Assembly (NCBI RefSeq): GCF_014850975.1 | Contig: NZ_JACXST010000001.1 | Span: 1,550,001-1,614,000 of the forward strand | Source: Methylomonas fluvii | Lineage (GTDB): Bacteria > Pseudomonadota > Gammaproteobacteria > Methylococcales > Methylomonadaceae | Reading direction: 5' to 3' | Length of the DNA stretch: 64,000 nt | Notes under the pieces: model-generated | Database searches by the model: none | The model's input: only the letters and a program-made list of their open reading frames with translations | What the model was told of the DNA's origin: nothing | Part shown: piece after piece, positions 2,039-18,306 of the stretch | Layout: every line of letters begins with the position of its first letter | Position numbering within the stretch: the first letter of the stretch is position 1 | Program-made: the position numbers and the translations under genes

Positions 2039-3298
2039 CTAAAGTGCTTGTTCGATAGCGGTCAGGACTTCGGCGGTACTGGGCAGGCCGGAGTCGCGCA
2101 ATTTTTTCAGCCGGATCGCCACCACGTTATCCAGGCGGTAGGCATGGCCGGAGTGGTCGATGCCGGGCGTGCCAACGGGAATAAACACATCCGGTTCTTT
2201 CTCAAATTTCATGCCGGAGCGACCGATGACGATGGTCGGTAAGTCGGTTTTTGGGGGCTGTGCGCTGCTGTTAAACGCCTGAACCCAGACCAAAACATCG
2301 GCTTCGCGGCTATTTAGCAGCGCTTGCGTGTCGTAGAGGTAGGGATCGTACTCGGGGTAACCACGGGCAAAATTGACGCGCGCCGGGTAGCCGGTGGTCC
2401 AGCCGCAGACTTGGTTGGCGGTTTGGTCACCTTCCTTGCCGCCCAACGGAAAACCGGAACAGCGGGTGCCTAATTGGTTCAGGTCTTTAACGATATTACA
2501 CAGCGTTTGCACGGTCAGCTCGGCTTGATCGAATGCCAATGCCGCCGCGCCCCAGAGAATGACGCCGTAGTGTGCGGCCTTCAGTTTGTCGGCGATAAGC
2601 TGTAGTTCGCTAATGGCAATGCCGGCGACGCTTTGTACGTGTAGCAAGTGGCCTTTAACCAGGGCCGACAAGGCGGCAGTCACATCCGGTAAGTCGGCAT
2701 CAGCACAAGGTAGTACGCGGGCTTTTTGGCCGGTCGGAGAAGTTGAAGCGTTTCCTGACGGTGCTTTACCCAGATAAATAATTTCCCGGTTGGCAGTGCT
2801 GTCGAGGAACATGGCTTCCTCATTCCACAAATACTTCTCGAAAAAGCGCGGGGCAAAGGCTTCCAGATCGGTGCCGACTACCAGTAATAAATCGCAACGG
2901 TTTTTCAGTTCGGCTAATGTGGTATTCATCCAGCCGGAGTCCTGCAAAGCCAGTAAATTGCGGCGTGCGTTATTAAAATTCATGTTATCGACCACTGCGC
3001 CGCTCTTGTCGGCTAAAGCCAGCAGGGCGCGCATGCCGTTAACATCGGTCGCGCAGCCGCCTATCACAGGCTGATGGGTGTTTCGTAACAATTCCGCTGC
3101 TTTAGTGGCCGCCGCTTCCAAACTTGCTGCCTGCCCGGCAATGCGCGGCGAGGTGTCCGCTATAGCCTGTTCGAATGCCGGTGTATTAACCGAGCAACCG
3201 TTTGCGGTCACTTTCAAGGTTGTGCCGTCCACCTGTATGCTCAGGTCGTCGGTACCAATGCCGCAAAACGGGCTGGGTACCTCGGTTATTTCAGTCAT
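2039..3298 (-). CDS. fhcB: Formyltransferase/hydrolase complex subunit B
   Basis: A 419-residue FwdB/FmdB-like subunit. I chose the ATG at 3298 (MTEITEVPSPFCGIG); an in-frame upstream extension to 3406 would run into the preceding gene. In methanogens this subunit carries molybdopterin or tungstopterin and an N-terminal 4Fe-4S site. Here only one cysteine (C12, in PFCGIGTDD) remains where the multi-cysteine motif would be. That agrees with the established view that the bacterial Fhc complex is a hydrolase without the redox centre. It forms one transcription unit with the dehydratase upstream and fhcA downstream. Confidence 0.93.
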   Translation of the reverse strand: MTEITEVPSPFCGIGTDDLSIQVDGTTLKVTANGCSVNTPAFEQAIADTSPRIAGQAASLEAAATKAAELLRNTHQPVIGGCATDVNGMRALLALADKSGAVVDNMNFNNARRNLLALQDSGWMNTTLAELKNRCDLLLVVGTDLEAFAPRFFEKYLWNEEAMFLDSTANREIIYLGKAPSGNASTSPTGQKARVLPCADADLPDVTAALSALVKGHLLHVQSVAGIAISELQLIADKLKAAHYGVILWGAAALAFDQAELTVQTLCNIVKDLNQLGTRCSGFPLGGKEGDQTANQVCGWTTGYPARVNFARGYPEYDPYLYDTQALLNSREADVLVWVQAFNSSAQPPKTDLPTIVIGRSGMKFEKEPDVFIPVGTPGIDHSGHAYRLDNVVAIRLKKLRDSGLPSTAEVLTAIEQAL

Positions 3299-11073: not shown

Positions 11074-11128
11074 CCGTCGCTAGCACGCAACAAAGCGCGG
11101 CCTGCCCGCCAATCGAAACCAGGAATCC

Positions 11129-12583
11129 ATGTTCGAACAAGCCTTCAAAAACATCGACGACATCCTGCGCAAGGAAGCCGGTTGCGCCAGCGAATTGGAC
11201 TACACCGAGCAAACCTCCTGGCTGCTGTTTTTAAAATACCTGGACGGCTTGGAGCAAGACAAAGCCATGGAAGAGGAACTGGAAGGTCTTGGCTACCGCT
11301 ATATTCTCGACCAACCTTACCGCTGGGAAAGCTGGGCCGCACCGAAAACCGCCGACGGCAAGCTCGATCACAACACCGCGCTGACTGGCGACGACTTGCG
11401 CGACTTTGTCGACCGCAAACTATTCCCTTATCTGCACGCCTTCAAGCAACGCGCCAGCGGTCCCAACACGCTGGAATACAAGATCGGCGAAATCTTCGGC
11501 GAGATCAAAAACAAAATCCACAGCGGCTACAACTTGCGCGAAATCATCGACCACATCGACGAGCTGCGCTTTCGTTCGCAAACCGAAAAACACGAACTGT
11601 CCCACCTCTACGAAGCCAAGATCAAAAACATGGGCAACGCCGGGCGCAACGGCGGCGAATACTACACGCCCCGGCCGCTGATTCGGGCGATTGTCAAAGT
11701 TACGCAGCCCAAAATTGGCGAACGCATCTACGATGGTGCGGTCGGTTCGGCGGGCTTTTTATGCGAAGCCTACGATTATCTGACCAGCCAAGGCTCTCTG
11801 ACCACCGCCGATTTGCAAACCCTGCAAACCAAAACTTTTTACGGCAAGGAAAAGAAATCGCTGGCCTACGTCATCGCGATCATGAACATGATCCTGCACG
11901 GCATCGAAGCGCCCAACATCGTCCACACCAACACCCTTTCAGAAAACCTGGCCGACATTCAGGACAAAGACCGCGTCGATGTGATCCTGGCTAATCCGCC
12001 GTTTGGGGGCAAGGAGCGTAAGGAAGTCCAGCAAAATTTTGCCATCCGCACCGGCGAAACCGCCTTTCTGTTCTTACAGCACTTCATCAAAATGCTCAAA
12101 GCCGGTGGTCGGGCTGGCGTGGTGATCAAAAACACCTTTTTGTCCAACACCGACAACGCCTCGGTGTCTTTACGCAAGCTGCTACTGGAAAGCTGCAACC
12201 TGCACACCGTGCTCGACTGCCCCGGCGGTACCTTCCAGGGCGCGGGCGTCAAAACCGTGGTGCTGTTCTTCGAAAAAGGCGCGCCGACTCGCAAGGTCTG
12301 GTACTACCAACTCGACCCCGGCCGCAATATGGGCAAAACCAATCCGCTCAACGACGCAGACCTGGCCGAATTCGTCGAACTGCAACAAACCCAGGCTGAT
12401 TCGCCCAAAAGCTGGACAATGGACGTTTCCAGCATCGACACAACTACTTACGACCTGTCGGTGAAAAATCCCAACGGCGTTGAAGCCGTCACCCATCGCA
12501 GTCCGCAGGACATCATGGACGAGATAGCGGCACTGGATAAAGAGAGTGCGTTAGTATTGGACAAAATTCGGAGGTTATTATGA
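11129..12583 (+). CDS. hsdM: Type I restriction-modification methyltransferase subunit
   Basis: A 484-residue N6-adenine methyltransferase. The N-terminal HsdM helical domain (residues 1-140, with TEQTSWLLFLKYLDGLE) precedes the catalytic domain. The SAM-binding motif region GAVGSAGFLCEAYDY lies near residue 205 and the catalytic NPPF (VILANPPFGG) near residue 288. It is the first gene of a gene-overlapping operon that continues with a HEPN-MNT pair, hsdS, a MazE/MazF-like pair and hsdR. Its last 24 codons have a second diverged copy just upstream of hsdS (13343-13417). Confidence 0.95.
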   Translation: MFEQAFKNIDDILRKEAGCASELDYTEQTSWLLFLKYLDGLEQDKAMEEELEGLGYRYILDQPYRWESWAAPKTADGKLDHNTALTGDDLRDFVDRKLFPYLHAFKQRASGPNTLEYKIGEIFGEIKNKIHSGYNLREIIDHIDELRFRSQTEKHELSHLYEAKIKNMGNAGRNGGEYYTPRPLIRAIVKVTQPKIGERIYDGAVGSAGFLCEAYDYLTSQGSLTTADLQTLQTKTFYGKEKKSLAYVIAIMNMILHGIEAPNIVHTNTLSENLADIQDKDRVDVILANPPFGGKERKEVQQNFAIRTGETAFLFLQHFIKMLKAGGRAGVVIKNTFLSNTDNASVSLRKLLLESCNLHTVLDCPGGTFQGAGVKTVVLFFEKGAPTRKVWYYQLDPGRNMGKTNPLNDADLAEFVELQQTQADSPKSWTMDVSSIDTTTYDLSVKNPNGVEAVTHRSPQDIMDEIAALDKESALVLDKIRRLL

Positions 12584-13005
12584 ATCAGCACAATCTGGAC
12601 ATTCGTTGGCAACAGCGTTTTGCCAATTTCCAACGGGCGTTTTTACTGCTGCGCGAAGCGATGGAAAGCAATTTGTCTGAACTTAGTCAGTTGGAGAAAG
12701 AAGGTGTTATTCAGCGCTTTGAATACACCTTTGAACTGGCCTGGAAGGTGTTGAAAGACAAAATGGAAAACGATGGCCTGGTATTGGACCAAGTGTCGCC
12801 CAAAGCGGTCGTCAAGCAAGCCTATGCCTCAAAATATATCGATAGCCCCGAAACTTGGCTACGCATGATCGGTGACCGTAACTTGATGAGCCACACCTAC
12901 GATTTCGTCAAATTCGAAGCAGTGATCCAGTCGATCGCCAGCGACTATCTGCCGATGTTGCAAGACTGGTATCTGGGCTTGCTGGACGAACTCAACAACA
13001 CATGA
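12580..13005 (+). CDS. HEPN-family toxin / nucleotidyltransferase-substrate protein (HI0074/HepT type)
   Basis: A 141-residue all-helical HEPN protein. Residues 100-107 (RNLMSHTY) match the RX4HXY motif of HepT-type RNases: R100, H105 and Y107. In characterised HepT-MntA pairs the HEPN protein is the toxin and the tyrosine is adenylylated by the partner. Its ATG overlaps the hsdM stop (ATGA), and its stop overlaps the next start. The position between hsdM and hsdS suggests it entered the operon later. Activity is inferred only from the motif. Confidence 0.87.
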   Translation: MNQHNLDIRWQQRFANFQRAFLLLREAMESNLSELSQLEKEGVIQRFEYTFELAWKVLKDKMENDGLVLDQVSPKAVVKQAYASKYIDSPETWLRMIGDRNLMSHTYDFVKFEAVIQSIASDYLPMLQDWYLGLLDELNNT

Positions 13006-13331
13006 TCAACAGCGGCCTGACCCCAGATCAATTAGCGCTGCTGGTGCGAGTGTTCCAACAGCATCCGCAAATTGACTGCGTCAAACTCTACGGTTCCCGC
13101 GCCAAAGGTACGTTTCAGCCGCGCAGTGACGTGGACCTAGTGGCGTTTGGCGACGGCATCGATCGTTTTTTGCTTGCCGACATCCTGCTGGACTTGGAAG
13201 ACTCGGCTTTGCCCTATCAGGTTGACTTGCAAAATTATCACGAGCTGAAAAACCGTGCATTGATTGACCATATCGACCGGGTGGGAGTGGTTTTGTACCA
13301 AAGACAAAAGGACGAGGAAAAATGTTCATGA
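13002..13331 (+). CDS. MNT-type nucleotidyltransferase antitoxin
   Basis: A 109-residue minimal nucleotidyltransferase. The fold's GSX10DXD signature is intact (G31-S32, D43, D45, within GSRAKGTFQPRSDVDLVAFG). A third acidic position (QVDLQNY) follows. Proteins of this type pair with HEPN toxins and in known cases neutralise them by adenylylating the conserved tyrosine. It overlaps the HEPN gene by 4 bases. Confidence 0.88.
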   Translation: MINSGLTPDQLALLVRVFQQHPQIDCVKLYGSRAKGTFQPRSDVDLVAFGDGIDRFLLADILLDLEDSALPYQVDLQNYHELKNRALIDHIDRVGVVLYQRQKDEEKCS

Positions 13332-13417
13332 CACGGCGGCTGGACATCATGGACGAGATTGCCGCGTTGGATGCTGAGAGTGCTGAGGTGTTGGAACGGA
13401 TTCGGGGGCTGCTGTGA
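13328..13417 (+). pseudogene. Second copy of the hsdM C-terminal tail (29 codons)
   Basis: A short open frame starting with an ATG that overlaps the antitoxin stop. From codon 6 it encodes DIMDEIAALDAESAEVLERI and on to a TGA. Those residues match the last 24 residues of HsdM (DIMDEIAALDKESALVLDKI). By my hand count about 54 of 75 aligned bases are identical, including the stop. The TGA overlaps the GTG start of hsdS. It is most simply the ancestral end of hsdM, left behind when the HEPN-MNT pair was inserted with its own hsdM tail. It might still serve to couple translation into hsdS. Confidence 0.75.
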
Positions 13418-14583
13418 AGGAGGGTTGGCAACAAAGTGTGATTGGTAGCTACTGTGAGGTTATTGCTGGCCAGTCACCAGAAGGTAAATATTACAACGCT
13501 GACGGCAATGGAATGGCCTTCTATCAGGGCAAAAAGGACTTTGGCGACAAGTTCATTGAAGCGCCCACCACATGGACAACTAAATCGACAAAGATTGCTC
13601 GTAAAGGCGACATTCTTATGTCGGTTCGTGCGCCGGTTGGACCAGTCAACTTCTCCACGGAAGAAATTTGCATAGGTCGTGGGTTGGCTGCAATCCGTAG
13701 AAACGATCAACTAGATGCGGAGTTTCTCTACTATCAGTTGTTACATTTACAACGTGAAATTGCCGGGAAAGAAGGCGCTGTCTTTGCCTCAATTAATAAA
13801 TCCGAAATTGCAGCCTTACCTATTGTAATTGGGCCTCTCCCCGAACAACACCGCATCGTCGCCATCCTCGACGAAGCGTTTGACGGCATCGCCACCGCCA
13901 AAGCCAACGCCGAACGGAACCTGCAAAACGCGCGGGCTTTGTTTGAGAGTCATTTGCAGGCGGTGTTTAGTCAGCGGAGTGAAGGATGGGAGGCGCGTCG
14001 CCTCGGTGAGGTTTTTTGCATCGGATCAAGCAAGCGCATTCTGGAAGCGGAATGGACTGCTACCGGAGTTCCGTTTTATGGAGGGAAAGAGATTGTCAAA
14101 CTTGCAAAATTTGGGACTGTGATCAGTAATGCATATATCTCCGAAGAGAAATATCAGGACTACGCTTCAAAGTACGACATGCCACAACAGGGAGACATAC
14201 TGATTACAGCAAGGGGAACGATCGGCGTGGGATATGTCGTAAAAGAAGGCGACAAGTTCTATTACAAGGACGGCAACATTATCTCGATGAGGGAGAAAAC
14301 ACCTACCAATCCGCACTTCATTTTGTATGCCTTTAGATCGAATGCAATTGCTGATCAGCTCGAAGAGCTGAATGGAGCGACTGTTAGACATCTACCAATC
14401 GAAAAGGCAAAAGAACTTGTTTTGAGAATGCCGGGGTTTGTTGAGCAAAATACTGTTGTAGAGAAAATCCGAGAAATTGAATCCGAAACCCAGCGTCTAG
14501 AATCCCTCTACCAACAAAAACTCGCCGCTCTCGACGAATTGAAAAAATCCCTGCTGCACCAAGCCTTCAGCGGCAATCTGTAA
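13414..14583 (+). CDS. hsdS: Type I restriction specificity subunit
   Basis: A 389-residue HsdS with two target-recognition domains. TRD1 is at about residues 3-140, followed by a conserved helical spacer (LPEQHRIVAILDEAFDGIATA). TRD2 is at about 195-330, followed by a second coiled spacer (ESETQRLESLYQQKLAALDEL). The C-terminal LLHQAFSGNL is typical of the family. It defines the two half-sites recognised by the complex. The start is GTG and overlaps the stop of the short hsdM-tail copy. The TRD segments are more AT-rich than the spacers, as is common for exchanged TRDs. Confidence 0.93.
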   Translation: MKEGWQQSVIGSYCEVIAGQSPEGKYYNADGNGMAFYQGKKDFGDKFIEAPTTWTTKSTKIARKGDILMSVRAPVGPVNFSTEEICIGRGLAAIRRNDQLDAEFLYYQLLHLQREIAGKEGAVFASINKSEIAALPIVIGPLPEQHRIVAILDEAFDGIATAKANAERNLQNARALFESHLQAVFSQRSEGWEARRLGEVFCIGSSKRILEAEWTATGVPFYGGKEIVKLAKFGTVISNAYISEEKYQDYASKYDMPQQGDILITARGTIGVGYVVKEGDKFYYKDGNIISMREKTPTNPHFILYAFRSNAIADQLEELNGATVRHLPIEKAKELVLRMPGFVEQNTVVEKIREIESETQRLESLYQQKLAALDELKKSLLHQAFSGNL

Positions 14584-14596
14584 GCGCAAATACAGG

Positions 14597-14638
14597 TTGC
14601 ATGTAACAAGGCTGGGCGACTATGATGTTTCATGTAAC
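14597..14638 (+). promoter_or_regulatory. Possible promoter/operator of the MazE/MazF-like pair
   Basis: In the 74-base gap after hsdS there is a -35-like TTGCAT (14597-14602), an 18-base spacer and the -10 box TATGAT (14621-14626). Two direct copies of CATGTAAC (14600-14607 and 14631-14638), 31 bases apart, bracket the -10 box. Repeats placed like this are typical of antitoxin autoregulation. The call rests on pattern only. Confidence 0.4.
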
Positions 14639-14657
14639 GTTAATCCAGGAGTTCGCC

Positions 14658-14870
14658 ATGCGCTCAGCCACCTCAGCACGGGTTCAGAAACATCGCATCG
14701 CTCTGCGCGAAGCCGGTTTGCGACCGCTGCAAATTTGGGTGCCGGACACCCGCCGCGAAGGCTTCGCCGAGGAGTGCCGGCGGCAGTCCTTATCGATACA
14801 AAATGATGCTGCCGAACAAGATGCCTTGAACTGGCTGGAGACAGTCGCCGACCGCGACGGCTGGCAGTGA
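14658..14870 (+). CDS. MazE-family antitoxin (DUF3018 type)
   Basis: A 70-residue protein starting MRSATSARVQKHRIALREAG, with the family motif RPLQIWVPDTRREGFAEECRRQ. The start was chosen for its Shine-Dalgarno AGGAG, 6 bases upstream; an in-frame ATG at 14622 lacks one. It is placed directly before the MazF-like gene with a GTGA overlap, the usual antitoxin-toxin order. The first half probably binds DNA and the acidic tail the toxin, by analogy. Confidence 0.85.
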   Translation: MRSATSARVQKHRIALREAGLRPLQIWVPDTRREGFAEECRRQSLSIQNDAAEQDALNWLETVADRDGWQ

Positions 14871-15190
14871 GGCGCGGCGATTTGGTGACGGTGGCCTTAC
14901 AGGGTGATCTGGGCAAACCGCGCCCGGCACTGTTGATTCAATCCGATCTGTTTGACGCACATCCGTCGGTAACGATTTTACCGATCACCAGCGAACTGCG
15001 CGATGCGCCGTTGTTTCGGATTGCCGTGGCCGCAAACGAGCGCACCGGCTTGAGCCTGGCCTCACAAATCATGGTGGACAAACCGCAATCGGTAGCGCGA
15101 AACAAAATTGGCGGGGTGATCGGCCGAGTCGATGATGAAACCCTGTTGGCGGTCAATCGGGCGCTGGCGGTGTTTCTTGGCTTTGCGTAA
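14867..15190 (+). CDS. MazF/PemK-family endoribonuclease toxin
   Basis: A 107-residue protein with the MazF fold pattern. It begins RRGDLVTVALQGDLGKPRPALLIQS, then has TILPITSEL and LASQIMVDKPQSVARNKIGGVIGRVD. The GKPRPALL loop and a downstream threonine/serine row are characteristic of mRNA interferases. The start is GTG, overlapping the antitoxin stop. It lies between hsdS and hsdR, 9 bases before hsdR. Confidence 0.87.
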   Translation: MRRGDLVTVALQGDLGKPRPALLIQSDLFDAHPSVTILPITSELRDAPLFRIAVAANERTGLSLASQIMVDKPQSVARNKIGGVIGRVDDETLLAVNRALAVFLGFA

Positions 15191-15199
15191 AGGATAGCC

Positions 15200-17704
15200 A
15201 TGAACGAAGCCGAAACCCGCGCCGAATACATTGACCCTGCTTTAGCTCAGGCCGGTTGGGGTGTGGTGGAAGGCAGCCGGATTCGTCGCGAGTATTCCAT
15301 CACGTTGGGTCGGCTGGAAGGTCATGGCAAGCGCGGCAAAGCGCTGACCGCCGATTATGTTCTGGAATACCGCAACACCAAGTTGGCGGTAGTCGAAGCT
15401 AAAGCCTGGGATAAAGCGCTGACCGAAGGCGTTGGACAGGCCAAGGATTATGCGCAGAAGTTGGCGATTCGTTTCAGCTACGCCAGTAACGGCCAAGGTG
15501 TATACGCCATCGACATGCACACCGGCGTGGAAGGCGAACGGAGCGAGTTTCCGTCGCCAGACGAATTGTGGAATGCGACCTTTGCGCGGCAAAACGCTTG
15601 GCGCGACCGTTTTGCCGCAGTGCCGTTCGAAGATAGGGGCGGTTACTTTCAGGGACGCTACTACCAGGACATTGCCATCGACAAGGTATTGGCGGCGATA
15701 GCGGAAGGCAAAGACCGGGTGTTGCTGACGCTGGCCACCGGTACCGGTAAAACCTTTATTGCGTTTCAATTGGCGTGGAAGCTATTCCACAGTCGCTGGA
15801 ACCTGAACGATTGGCGCTTCGACGCACTCAGCGCGAACGGTCAGCCCAGTCGTCGGCCGCGCATCTTGTTTCTGGCGGACCGCAATATCCTCGCCGACCA
15901 GGGGTACAACGCCTTTTCCGCGTTTCCGGAAGATGCCTTGGTACGGATTGCCCCCGACGAGATTCGTAAAAAGGGCAAGGTGCCGAAGAACGGCAATATC
16001 TTTTTCACCATTTTTCAGACCTTCATATCCGGGCCGGTCAGCCCAACCGTTCGCCCTGAGCCAGTCGAAGGGCAAACTTTATCCGTTCATGGTTCGACAA
16101 GCTCACCACGAACGGATGCGGAATTGATGCAGTACAAACGTAATTTCTACTTCGGCGAATACCCACCCGACTTTTTCGACTTCATCGTCATCGACGAATG
16201 CCATCGCGGCGGCGCCAACGACGAAAGCAACTGGCGCGGGATTCTGGATTACTTTTCGCCCGCCGTGCAGCTGGGTTTGACCGCAACCCCGAAACGTAAG
16301 GACAACGTTGACACCTACGCTTACTTTGGCGAACCGGTGTTTATCTACTCGCTGAAAGACGGCATCAACGACGGTTACCTGACGCCGTTTCGCGTCAAGC
16401 AGATTGCCACTACCTTGGACGATTATGTCTTCACCACCGACGACACCGTGGTCGAAGGTGAAATCGAAATGGGCAAACGCTACGAAGAAAAAGACTTCAA
16501 CAAAATCATCGAAATCCGCGAGCGCGAGAAAAAGCGCGTCGAAATCTTTCTGGCCCAGATCAATCCGCGCGAAAAGACCCTGGTGTTTTGCGCCAACCAA
16601 CAGCATGCCTTGCTGATCCGGGATTTGATCAACGAATTAAAAACCGTCAACGATCCGAATTATTGTCACCGGGTCACCGCCAACGACGGCGCCTTGGGCG
16701 AACAATGGCTACGGGATTTTCAGGATAACGAAAAATCCATTCCTACCATTCTCACGACCTCGCAAAAGCTGTCGACCGGCGTCGATGCCCGCAACGTGCG
16801 TAACATTGTGTTGCTGCGCCCGGTCAATTCCATGATCGAATTCAAGCAGATCATAGGTCGCGGTACCCGGCTGTACGACGGCAAGGATTATTTCACCATC
16901 TACGACTTCGTGCGCGCCCACCACCATTTTAGCGATCCGGAATGGGACGGTGAGCCGCTGGAGCCGGAAGCTTGTATAAAATGCGGCAGTTATCCGTGCC
17001 AATGCGAAAAGCCCATTCCCCAGCCTTGTAAAACCTGTGGCCAACAACCTTGCCAGTGCCCGCAACCGCCCTGTGAGAGGTGTGGCGAAACGCCTTGTGT
17101 TTGCCGTCAGAAAAACAAAACCAAAGTGAAGTTAGCCGATGGTAAAGAGCGGGCCATTCAACACATGCTGGTCACCAGCTTCTGGCACCCGGATGGCACG
17201 CCGATGTCGGCAGCTCAGTTCCTGGAAGCCCTATTCGGCAAACTGCCAGAGTTTTTCAGAGACGAAGACGAATTGCGTGGGCTGTGGAGCGAGCCGGACA
17301 CTCGCAAGAAATTGTTGGAAGGCTTGGCGGAAAACGGTTTTGGCAAGGATCAACTGGTGGAAATGCAGAAAATCATCGCCGCGGAAAACAGCGATTTGTT
17401 CGACGTGCTGGCTTTCGTAGCGTATGCCTTGACGCCCATCAGCCGAGAGCACCGCGCCGATACGGCCAAAGTCGAAATCGGCCGGCATTTTAATTACCGG
17501 CAGCAGGCGTTTCTGGATTTTGTGTTGGGCCACTATGTTAGTGTGGGGGTCGATGAGTTGGACCAAGCCAATTTAAAGCAATTGTTGAAGCTTAAATATC
17601 AAAATTCCATCGCCGATGCGGTAGCGGATTTGGGTAAGCCCGAGCAGATAGGCCAGGTGTTCAGCGGTTTTCAGAAGTTTTTGTATCGGCAGGCGGTGGG
17701 CTGA
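15200..17704 (+). CDS. hsdR: Type I restriction endonuclease/translocase subunit
   Basis: An 834-residue EcoEI-type HsdR. The nuclease domain is N-terminal (ADYVLEY...VVEAKAW near residues 52-75). The SF2 helicase follows, with Walker A ATGTGKT near 182 and DECHRGG near 333, then a second RecA domain with GRGTRLYDG. Two oddities stand out. A 69-base palindromic repeat is inserted in frame between Walker A and the DEAH-type box. Three tandem cysteine motifs of the form C-x2-C-x4-C-x-C (CIKCGSYPCQC, CKTCGQQPCQC, CERCGETPCVC) lie near residues 593-636 and could bind metal. The frame is otherwise intact. Confidence 0.93.
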   Translation: MNEAETRAEYIDPALAQAGWGVVEGSRIRREYSITLGRLEGHGKRGKALTADYVLEYRNTKLAVVEAKAWDKALTEGVGQAKDYAQKLAIRFSYASNGQGVYAIDMHTGVEGERSEFPSPDELWNATFARQNAWRDRFAAVPFEDRGGYFQGRYYQDIAIDKVLAAIAEGKDRVLLTLATGTGKTFIAFQLAWKLFHSRWNLNDWRFDALSANGQPSRRPRILFLADRNILADQGYNAFSAFPEDALVRIAPDEIRKKGKVPKNGNIFFTIFQTFISGPVSPTVRPEPVEGQTLSVHGSTSSPRTDAELMQYKRNFYFGEYPPDFFDFIVIDECHRGGANDESNWRGILDYFSPAVQLGLTATPKRKDNVDTYAYFGEPVFIYSLKDGINDGYLTPFRVKQIATTLDDYVFTTDDTVVEGEIEMGKRYEEKDFNKIIEIREREKKRVEIFLAQINPREKTLVFCANQQHALLIRDLINELKTVNDPNYCHRVTANDGALGEQWLRDFQDNEKSIPTILTTSQKLSTGVDARNVRNIVLLRPVNSMIEFKQIIGRGTRLYDGKDYFTIYDFVRAHHHFSDPEWDGEPLEPEACIKCGSYPCQCEKPIPQPCKTCGQQPCQCPQPPCERCGETPCVCRQKNKTKVKLADGKERAIQHMLVTSFWHPDGTPMSAAQFLEALFGKLPEFFRDEDELRGLWSEPDTRKKLLEGLAENGFGKDQLVEMQKIIAAENSDLFDVLAFVAYALTPISREHRADTAKVEIGRHFNYRQQAFLDFVLGHYVSVGVDELDQANLKQLLKLKYQNSIADAVADLGKPEQIGQVFSGFQKFLYRQAVG
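16047..16115 (+). repeat. Palindromic dispersed repeat inside hsdR (encodes RPEPVEG)
   Basis: A 69-base imperfect inverted repeat starting CCGTTCGCCCTGAG and ending CTCACCACGAACGG. It resembles the dispersed repeats that add RPEPVEG-like peptides to proteins in many proteobacteria. Its length is a multiple of three, so the hsdR frame is kept. A second copy in the other orientation lies at 17786-17857. Confidence 0.8.
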
Positions 17705-17785
17705 GCATTGTCGGCAAAATGTGTATGGTTCGTCATCCGCGCTCAGGTGGCGAATCCATATAGCCACCAATACCGCTAAGTTAAG

Positions 17786-17857
17786 CCGTTCGTGGTGAGT
17801 CGTGAGCTTGACGAATGATCGAACCATTCGCCCTTCGACCATACTCAGGACGAACGG
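17786..17857 (-). repeat. Second copy of the palindromic repeat, downstream of hsdR
   Basis: A 72-base copy whose reverse complement begins CCGTTCGTCCTGAG and ends CTCACCACGAACGG, so its two ends match the copy inside hsdR. It lies in the 206-base gap between hsdR and the next gene. No gene is evident in that gap, and the repeat's inverted halves could fold as an mRNA 3' hairpin. Confidence 0.75.
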
Positions 17858-17910
17858 TTAGTTTCTTGAGTTAACAGCCGGGTTAATAGCGCGGTTTGGC
17901 CCAGCGCAAA

Positions 17911-18306
17911 TTAATCGATTTGCTCCAATACCACCGGCTTGGCGCTAAATACCTCGGCAACCAATTCCAATTGCGCGGCAAATAGCGGCAGGGTCGGGAT
18001 TTTCCAGGCTTTGCCGGTGAATTTGGCCAGGATGTTGTTCAACCAAAGTCTGTCGGAGCTGGCGTGGTGAATGATGAAACGGTAGGACTCGCCGTCGTTG
18101 AATACCGCAAAATCTTCCAAAGTCACTTCTATGGTGTGTTCCTCGCCGTAAAGCCGGGTCTGCACGTAGACTTTGCGGGCATCGAGATCGAAGTTGAACT
18201 GGGTCAACTCCGCGATGCCTTTCATGATGATATTCGCCCCCCAAATAATCAGCGCGTTGGGCGTTAATTTGATAACAAAACGGATCAAGCTGGATTTAAA
18301 ACTCAT
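17911..18306 (-). CDS. Conserved-looking protein of unknown function
   Basis: A 131-residue protein I do not recognise. It starts MSFKSSLIRFVIKLTPN, has no clear signal peptide, and reads as alternating beta strands (KVYVQTRLYGEEHTIEVTLEDFAVF) with a helical end. It lies alone on the minus strand between the hsd operon's repeat and the nitroreductase gene. Codon use is like its neighbours, which supports it being real. Confidence 0.6.
   Translation of the reverse strand: MSFKSSLIRFVIKLTPNALIIWGANIIMKGIAELTQFNFDLDARKVYVQTRLYGEEHTIEVTLEDFAVFNDGESYRFIIHHASSDRLWLNNILAKFTGKAWKIPTLPLFAAQLELVAEVFSAKPVVLEQID

Follow-up and report, generated by a model that had tools for sequence, protein, structure and literature searches.

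The window analysed here, a 64,000-nucleotide stretch of Methylomonas fluvii DNA (contig NZ_JACXST010000001.1), carries at 11129-17704 a type I restriction-modification (R-M) operon with two toxin-antitoxin (TA) pairs inside it, in the order hsdM-HEPN-MNT-hsdS-mazE-mazF-hsdR, all on the + strand. The operon is of the EcoAI kind and was inserted as a unit; the HEPN-MNT pair is likely to be a guard of the restriction enzyme and the MazEF pair a swappable stabiliser. We give this combined reading, which is drawn from sequence comparison, about an even chance of being right. For the guard, it draws on relatives of the pair in which MNT is fused to a restriction subunit.

Composition of the operon

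The HEPN gene (12580..13005, 141 aa) is of the HI0074/PF08780 type (PF08780, 3e-37; TIGR01987, HI0074 family) and contains the RX4HXY motif, and its closest solved chain is the HEPN of the Legionella structure 8xdj (1.5e-19). The adjacent MNT nucleotidyltransferase antitoxin (13002..13331, 109 aa) contains GSX10DXD and matches PF18765 (1.1e-15) and PF01909 (4.1e-7; 30.7 bits, above the cut-off of 21), with the Legionella MNT 8xeh as closest solved chain (4.5e-16). Class I HEPN/MNT pairs have been defined by a HEPN of PF01934 or PF08780 with RX4HXY next to a PF01909 MNT with GSX10DXD (PMC7641770), and the window pair has the composition of this HepT/MntA class. As the MNT reached 41 bits against the 60 bits of the NCBIfam MntA equivalog cut-off, it is named here the MNT of a HI0074-type pair and not MntA proper. 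A gene for an RNA-cutting protein inside an hsd operon is also the arrangement of R-M guards of the PrrC kind, and the window HEPN has this position, its RNase activity being assigned by family and motif only.

The restriction genes are hsdM (11129..12583, 484 aa; PF02384, N6_Mtase, 1.4e-62; PADLOC MTase_I, 1.6e-162), encoding the adenine methyltransferase subunit, hsdS (13414..14583, 389 aa, GTG start; PF01420, 5.8e-31), encoding the specificity subunit, and hsdR (15200..17704, 834 aa), encoding a motor-nuclease subunit that scored 795 bits against the EcoAI/FtnUII family model NF046051 (cut-off 550). With all three together and an HsdR specific to that family, the system is EcoAI/FtnUII-like. 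The second pair consists of a MazE-like antitoxin (14658..14870, 70 aa), whose PF11455 match of 3e-29 was obtained with a longer ORF starting at 14622, directly upstream of a MazF/PemK-like toxin (14867..15190, 107 aa, GTG start; PF02452, 6e-22), which is the composition of a MazEF/PemIK pair. By comparison with a related operon, L162 (L-numbers denote the loci of this analysis), the mazE start is most likely the ATG at 14658 rather than 14622. Family profiles and ORF positions agree with the gene order, strand and limits given in the first-pass annotation, and the two motifs that it had described as intact both stand in the sequence.

MNT is repeatedly fused to HsdS or HsdR

Related operons were collected by hsdM searches of 251 genomes of the order, 369 of the class and 398 of the phylum (overlapping sets), which gave 74 operons; the regions L157 and L158 and the close contig-edge matches G094 and G134 lie outside this set. 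In five of the 74 (L120, L123, L153, L159 and L186), MNT and hsdS form a single open frame. The MNT part of L159 was then used as a query against 251 and 303 genomes, and matches in long frames (>350 aa) were found in 8 of 110 and 4 of 35 cases, respectively. All 12 long frames were MNT::HsdS (9) or MNT::HsdR (3) with HEPN directly upstream; four of them were known prior to the searches and one was the source of the query. Adding L186 and a second case in L239, there are 14 fused ORFs in 13 genomes, 11 with HsdS and 3 with HsdR, each directly downstream of HEPN, and nine of these lie in operons outside the 74. L238 and L239 have an identical HEPN-MNT pair in common.

Pfam confirmed all ten frames submitted to it, seven as Polbeta with Methylase_S, two as Polbeta with HsdR (EcoR124 type) and one as N6_Mtase with PF08780 (L121, an HsdM::HEPN frame); the remaining five fusions were seen by tblastn only. 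There is no methionine at the MNT joint in L235, L236, L245, L247 and L186. The hsdM genes of the fused operons L236, L237, L238, L239, L246 and L247 are only 25-27% identical to that of the window, and in L235 and L245 the sequence ends before hsdM. The PADLOC Specificity_I model PDLC03138 gave matches both to the window MNT, at positions 5-88, and to HsdS, at 304-439, as would be expected if MNT::HsdS fusions went into that model. Because MNT is repeatedly joined to one of these two subunits, and in Hsd families that differ from each other, it probably acts at the restriction enzyme.

In a tree of 50 joined HEPN-MNT pairs, 33 of them in hsd operons (made with quick searches and having weak nodes), context required nine changes and fusion nine; without four long-branch rows the fusion changes were seven, at least six of them forced. 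The tree thus indicates that MNT fusion arose repeatedly.

Two of the divergent fused loci are more elaborate. In L237:1-10000, a type I operon contains two HEPN-MNT pairs in succession, and it is the MNT of the second that is fused to HsdS; L239:1562-9582 holds one MNT::HsdS and one MNT::HsdR ORF, with a HEPN gene before each.

Gap contents of related operons

The space between hsdM and hsdS is called gap 1 here and that between hsdS and hsdR gap 2. Gap 1 could be counted in 67 of the 74 operons, the other seven being left out because the contig or the operon ends there, and most gap ORFs were named through one cluster representative. HEPN and/or MNT were found in gap 1 of 23 of the 67 (18/35 in the order, 5/32 in the class and phylum samples). 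The motifs are largely kept in these operons, with RX4HXY in 20 of 22 HEPN and GSX10DXD in 20 of 22 MNT sequences. When a single HEPN query was used, 54 loci were named, 11 of which had a close hsdM (60-84% identical) directly upstream. Other genes in gap 1 include DUF1016, GIY-YIG, BRO-N and RhuM, and the gap is shorter than 60 bp in 32 of the 67.

Both gaps were visible in 49 operons, and gap 2 was at least 250 bp in 37. Its genes include Fic, PIN, Phd-PIN, UPF0175-DUF3368, HicA with a HicB-like ORF, Unstab_antitox-ParE, YoeB, two kinds of MazEF, RhuM, an AAA_13 ATPase, Abi_2, HipBA (on the opposite strand) and Schlafen/AlbA. The first-pass annotation had held that two pairs in one hsd operon are unusual; within this family of operons the census did not bear it out. 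Among the 12 HEPN/MNT operons with both gaps fully visible, four have an antitoxin-toxin pair in gap 2 (L135, L146, L153 and L162; one of the four pairs is DUF2281-YoeB with a weak antitoxin match) and four more have Fic (L120, L121), PIN (L132) or DUF4160-DUF2442 (L137) there. The rest have a DUF2442 ORF (L126), ABC, RhuM and BRO-N (L172), an unnamed ORF (L159) or nothing (L123).

The enrichment of gap ORFs in toxin, TA and defence families exceeds chance, unlike the flanks scanned. Pfam on 150 gap ORFs gave PF08780 21 times, Polbeta 10, Fic 9, BRO-N 8, DUF1016 7, RhuM 5 and PIN_3 5. For the flanks, 150 of 367 ORFs were scanned, and no TA family was among the 25 commonest of 156 matched Pfam families, a comparison that single TA genes may escape; by blastp of all 367 against the gap ORFs, four matched, besides one match of 13 residues. 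Of the ORFs of at least 80 aa, 54 of 57 and 71 of 77 in the gaps share the strand of the hsd genes, compared with 192 of 299 in the flanks, counted with the initial gap assignment, in which some MNT::HsdS frames were taken as hsdS.

In the tree of hsdM, which has 74 rows (67 labelled, window included), the presence of HEPN/MNT required 13 changes, at least seven of them forced by starred branches, and none of 500 shuffles was as low (average 19). The tree indicates that the presence of the pair is clustered yet repeatedly gained or lost, and the gap-1 pairs are drawn from several lineages. The dN/dS ratio was 0.06-0.20 in ten gene comparisons (silent sites were saturated in 14 others), a sign that the HEPN-MNT pair is under purifying selection.

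Two loci stand apart. L154 is a decayed operon still with HEPN-MNT, in which the start of hsdS is joined to an antitoxin-like ORF (3063-3266) and most of hsdS and part of hsdR are gone; at L240 no hsd gene was seen.

Insertion beside mnmE and the MazEF pair

The operon was inserted as one unit beside mnmE. In 7 of the 25 other genomes of the genus that have the downstream gene, mnmE (95-97% identical) ends 25-27 bp from it, leaving an empty site, and in the window 6.8 kb including the whole operon lie between the same two genes. Homology to the empty site L270 stops at 11076 and resumes at 17913, so that the inserted segment is 11077..17912. For the remaining 18 genomes, mnmE was not seen in the stretch examined (up to 1.5 kb). 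The 3' side of mnmE is variable in the genus, with seven empty sites, one filled site (the window) and a different neighbour in L276. The source genome has four further places with HSDR_N matches, on contigs C1, C2 and C3 (L001-L005). Relatives of hsdM are also found on plasmids (17 records at E<=1e-100), including pRS11DPr4 of Methylomagnum ishizawai, where the annotated order is hsdM-hsdS-Phd/YefM-PIN-hsdR. Among viral contigs, no relative of the window HEPN was confirmed.

For the window-type MazF, 19 matches were found in the 251 genomes of the order; one is the window's own, and the other 18 had neither hsdS nor hsdR in the flank examined. The first-pass annotation had proposed counting across genomes how often such pairs lie in hsd operons, and conservation in relatives was its test of whether the pairs are there by chance. 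This count was run: HEPN-MNT recurs in gap 1 as given above and is fused to HsdS or HsdR, and the window and L162 both combine HEPN-MNT with MazEF of the PF11455 type. The L162 operon lies outside the order and its HEPN-MNT is of another lineage (39%/44% identical). The refuting condition, a lack of conservation, is thus contradicted for HEPN-MNT and partly borne out for MazEF. As gap 2 is occupied in relatives by many other toxin or defence genes and relatives of this MazF are mostly found elsewhere, MazEF is likely to be an opportunistic, swappable stabiliser of the operon.

Junctions and a remnant of the hsdM tail

The close packing noted in the first-pass annotation is confirmed, with 4-base overlaps at hsdM/HEPN (ATGA), HEPN/MNT (ATGA) and mazE/mazF and spacers of 9 nt (mazF-hsdR), 74 nt (hsdS-mazE) and 82 nt (MNT-hsdS). 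The last of these spacers was overlooked in that earlier reading as the place of a 29-codon open frame (13328..13417, + strand), a diverged second copy of the C-terminal tail of hsdM (repeat D1), which overlaps both the MNT stop (ATGA) and the GTG start of hsdS (GTGA). At the nucleotide level, the hsdM 3' end at 12505-12584 is repeated at 13339-13418 with 57 of 79 nt identical. The differences are mostly silent (pN 0.155, pS 0.765), as would be seen with two hsdM alleles and not with a gene and its decaying duplicate, and the overlap between the tail frame and hsdS resembles the four-base hsdM/hsdS overlap of cargo-free relatives (L124).

Among 36 scanned operons in which the first gap was 150 nt or longer, two more clear cases were found. 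L149 has a 20-codon tail-like frame between MNT and hsdS, as in the window, and this frame resembles the tail of a different hsdM more closely than that of L149 itself. In L159, 26 nt that exactly match the end of the operon's own hsdM lie between an extra gene (GIY-YIG) and HEPN. Because a remnant of the hsdM tail sits before hsdS in the window and L149, these copies suggest that hsdM-HEPN-MNT moves as a block through recombination in the hsdM tail, with the old tail left as a leader of hsdS. In both operons the tail frame coupled to hsdS could perhaps serve as a leader or give an HsdM-tail peptide. When hsdM was examined for a mosaic structure, its 3' end was 57% identical to L120, as against about 90% before it, a weak result as the same end is variable in all relatives.

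A further insertion lies in hsdR, where alignment with relatives places an in-frame stretch at 16045..16117 (approximate limits, + strand), which we take to be REP-like; the hsdR frame stays open. The same site is also filled in L120, L121 and L128 and there is no insertion in L124 and L125. Repeats like it also occur within the gap-1 GIY-YIG ORFs of some relatives. Promoter- and terminator-like sites in the operon numbered 4 and 14 against shuffled means of 4.5 and 10.9, within one standard deviation, which speaks neither for nor against a separate promoter or terminator of either pair, and Rfam gave nothing at the gathering threshold.

Proposed function and alternatives

In pairs of this class, MNT AMPylates the tyrosine in the RX4HXY motif of HEPN, which silences a ribonuclease (PMC7641770, PMC11586414). 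Considering the repeated MNT fusions and the precedent of PrrC, HEPN-MNT is most likely a guard. MNT would work near or on the HsdM/HsdS/HsdR complex and would keep HEPN modified as long as the complex is made and intact. If the enzyme were lost or degraded, or if a phage anti-restriction protein blocked it, HEPN without the modification could accumulate and cut RNA, so that both the cell and the phage would be halted, as with PrrC for EcoprrI. For the unfused MNT of the window, coupling may come from shared translation and perhaps from contacts, and cells losing the operon would be penalised by MazEF through ordinary addiction. The toxicity of HEPN, the step of its release and the contacts of the unfused window form are what we infer here. 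A wider version, which we hold more tentatively and think somewhat less probable than its contrary, is that HEPN-MNT is a built-in guard module across several Hsd families, with MNT belonging to the HsdS/HsdR complex as an additional domain or subunit and the toxin triggered by any phage protein that disables restriction.

Several observations weigh against a guard function. Since AMP is attached covalently, HEPN already present would not be released immediately on loss of MNT. The pair is missing from gap 1 in 44 of the 67 operons, and 40 divergent type I loci from the window's order gave no HEPN/MNT match in the stretch examined; these loci were hand-picked among weaker hsdM matches, and several are short or without hsdR downstream. 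The window MNT is itself unfused, 17 of the 50 pairs in the pair tree are standalone, and both kinds occur among those nearest to the window's. A possible start codon is kept at the old hsdS start in L120, L123, L153 and L159, where HsdS alone may still form, and the sole HsdM::HEPN frame (L121) comes after an hsdM tail that is altered and may stem from a frameshift or an error in the sequence. In L153, where MNT is fused, HEPN lacks the motif histidine; the MNTs of L136 and L137 deviate and the L126 HEPN is interrupted by Ns. Finally, tests on tvrAT, a phd-doc pair in a pneumococcal type I locus, gave no evidence of addiction, which its authors do not exclude (PMC6265443).

The strongest alternative, although we think it rather unlikely, is pure addiction, in which both pairs only stabilise a mobile hsd operon by arresting cells that have lost it and restriction failure is not sensed. 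It would suit an operon that is an insert absent in seven relatives and whose hsdM relatives occur on plasmids, one with annotated Phd/YefM-PIN between hsdS and hsdR, and it would suit an interchangeable gap-2 cargo with MazEF relatives mostly elsewhere. What it leaves unexplained is the repeated fusion of MNT to HsdS or HsdR and the preference of HEPN-MNT for one gap. The first-pass annotation had offered either addiction of the restriction system or a joint response to its failure; for HEPN-MNT, recurrence and fusions favour the joint response, and MazEF may be explained by stabilisation or chance insertion.

It is improbable that the hsd gaps merely tolerate insertion, with translational coupling drawing in whatever arrives. 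The gaps do also hold BRO-N, DUF1016, GIY-YIG, a Y1 transposase and unnamed ORFs, they carry insertion scars, and the many short first gaps mean that cargo is not required. Against this, toxin, TA and defence families are common among the gap ORFs, in contrast to the scanned flanks, HEPN-MNT is under purifying selection, and the fusion partner was a restriction subunit in every one of the 12 long frames. Least probable is a regulator in place of a toxin pair, where MNT with HEPN as substrate-binding partner puts nucleotides on Hsd subunits and tunes restriction: fusion would seat the transferase on the enzyme and TIGR01987 names the HI0074 family a substrate-binding subunit, but most HEPNs of related operons keep the RNase motif, as counted above, and the closest pair of known structure is described as a toxin with its antitoxin (PMC11586414).

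If MNT is indeed part of type I restriction enzymes, restriction failure becomes a directly testable trigger. AMP transfer would then extend the list of mechanisms known to guard R-M systems, which includes PrrC, and it would be explained how phage anti-restriction proteins can backfire.

Comparison with known systems

TA genes inside type I operons (PMC12255303, PMC6265443) and HEPN genes linked to R-M (PMC3710099) are already known. For the MNT-HsdS/HsdR fusions and the double layout, no description was found in a literature search covering titles, the starts of abstracts and selected passages, with few subscription papers. HEPN clades linked to R-M have been proposed to act as a second line when R-M fails, and PF08780/DUF86 HEPN domains are occasionally fused to methylase domains (PMC3710099). 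The terms 'HsdS', 'TRD' and 'specificity subunit' are absent from the main text of that paper, so MNT::HsdS fusions are not described there under those names.

The pneumococcal SpnIV type I locus resembles the window in having TA homologues (tvrAT, phd-doc) inside a type I R-M locus; the genes differ, and tvrAT reportedly acts mainly by suppressing excision through the recombinase gene (PMC6265443). The RptR-RMS-DarTG2-M48 island of E. coli likewise has a TA pair between hsdS and hsdR, but it has one pair, of another TA type, and a dedicated repressor, and fusion to an Hsd subunit is not mentioned in the account of it that is cited here (PMC12255303). The Class I HepT/MntA pairs (PMC7641770) and the Legionella HEPN-MNT pair (PMC11586414) have the same domains and motifs as the window pair. 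They are described as free in these sources, whereas the window pair is located within a type I R-M operon, with HEPN before MNT, and is fused in relatives. The PrrC-EcoprrI (type IC) system has, like the window, the gene of an RNA-cutting toxin inside an hsd operon, and the R-M complex holds PrrC until anti-restriction releases it (PMC3874165, PMC12707154, PMC2610378). PrrC is an ABC-HEPN protein without MNT (PMC3710099), whereas the window has a separate HEPN, an MNT of the AMP-transferring kind and a second pair.

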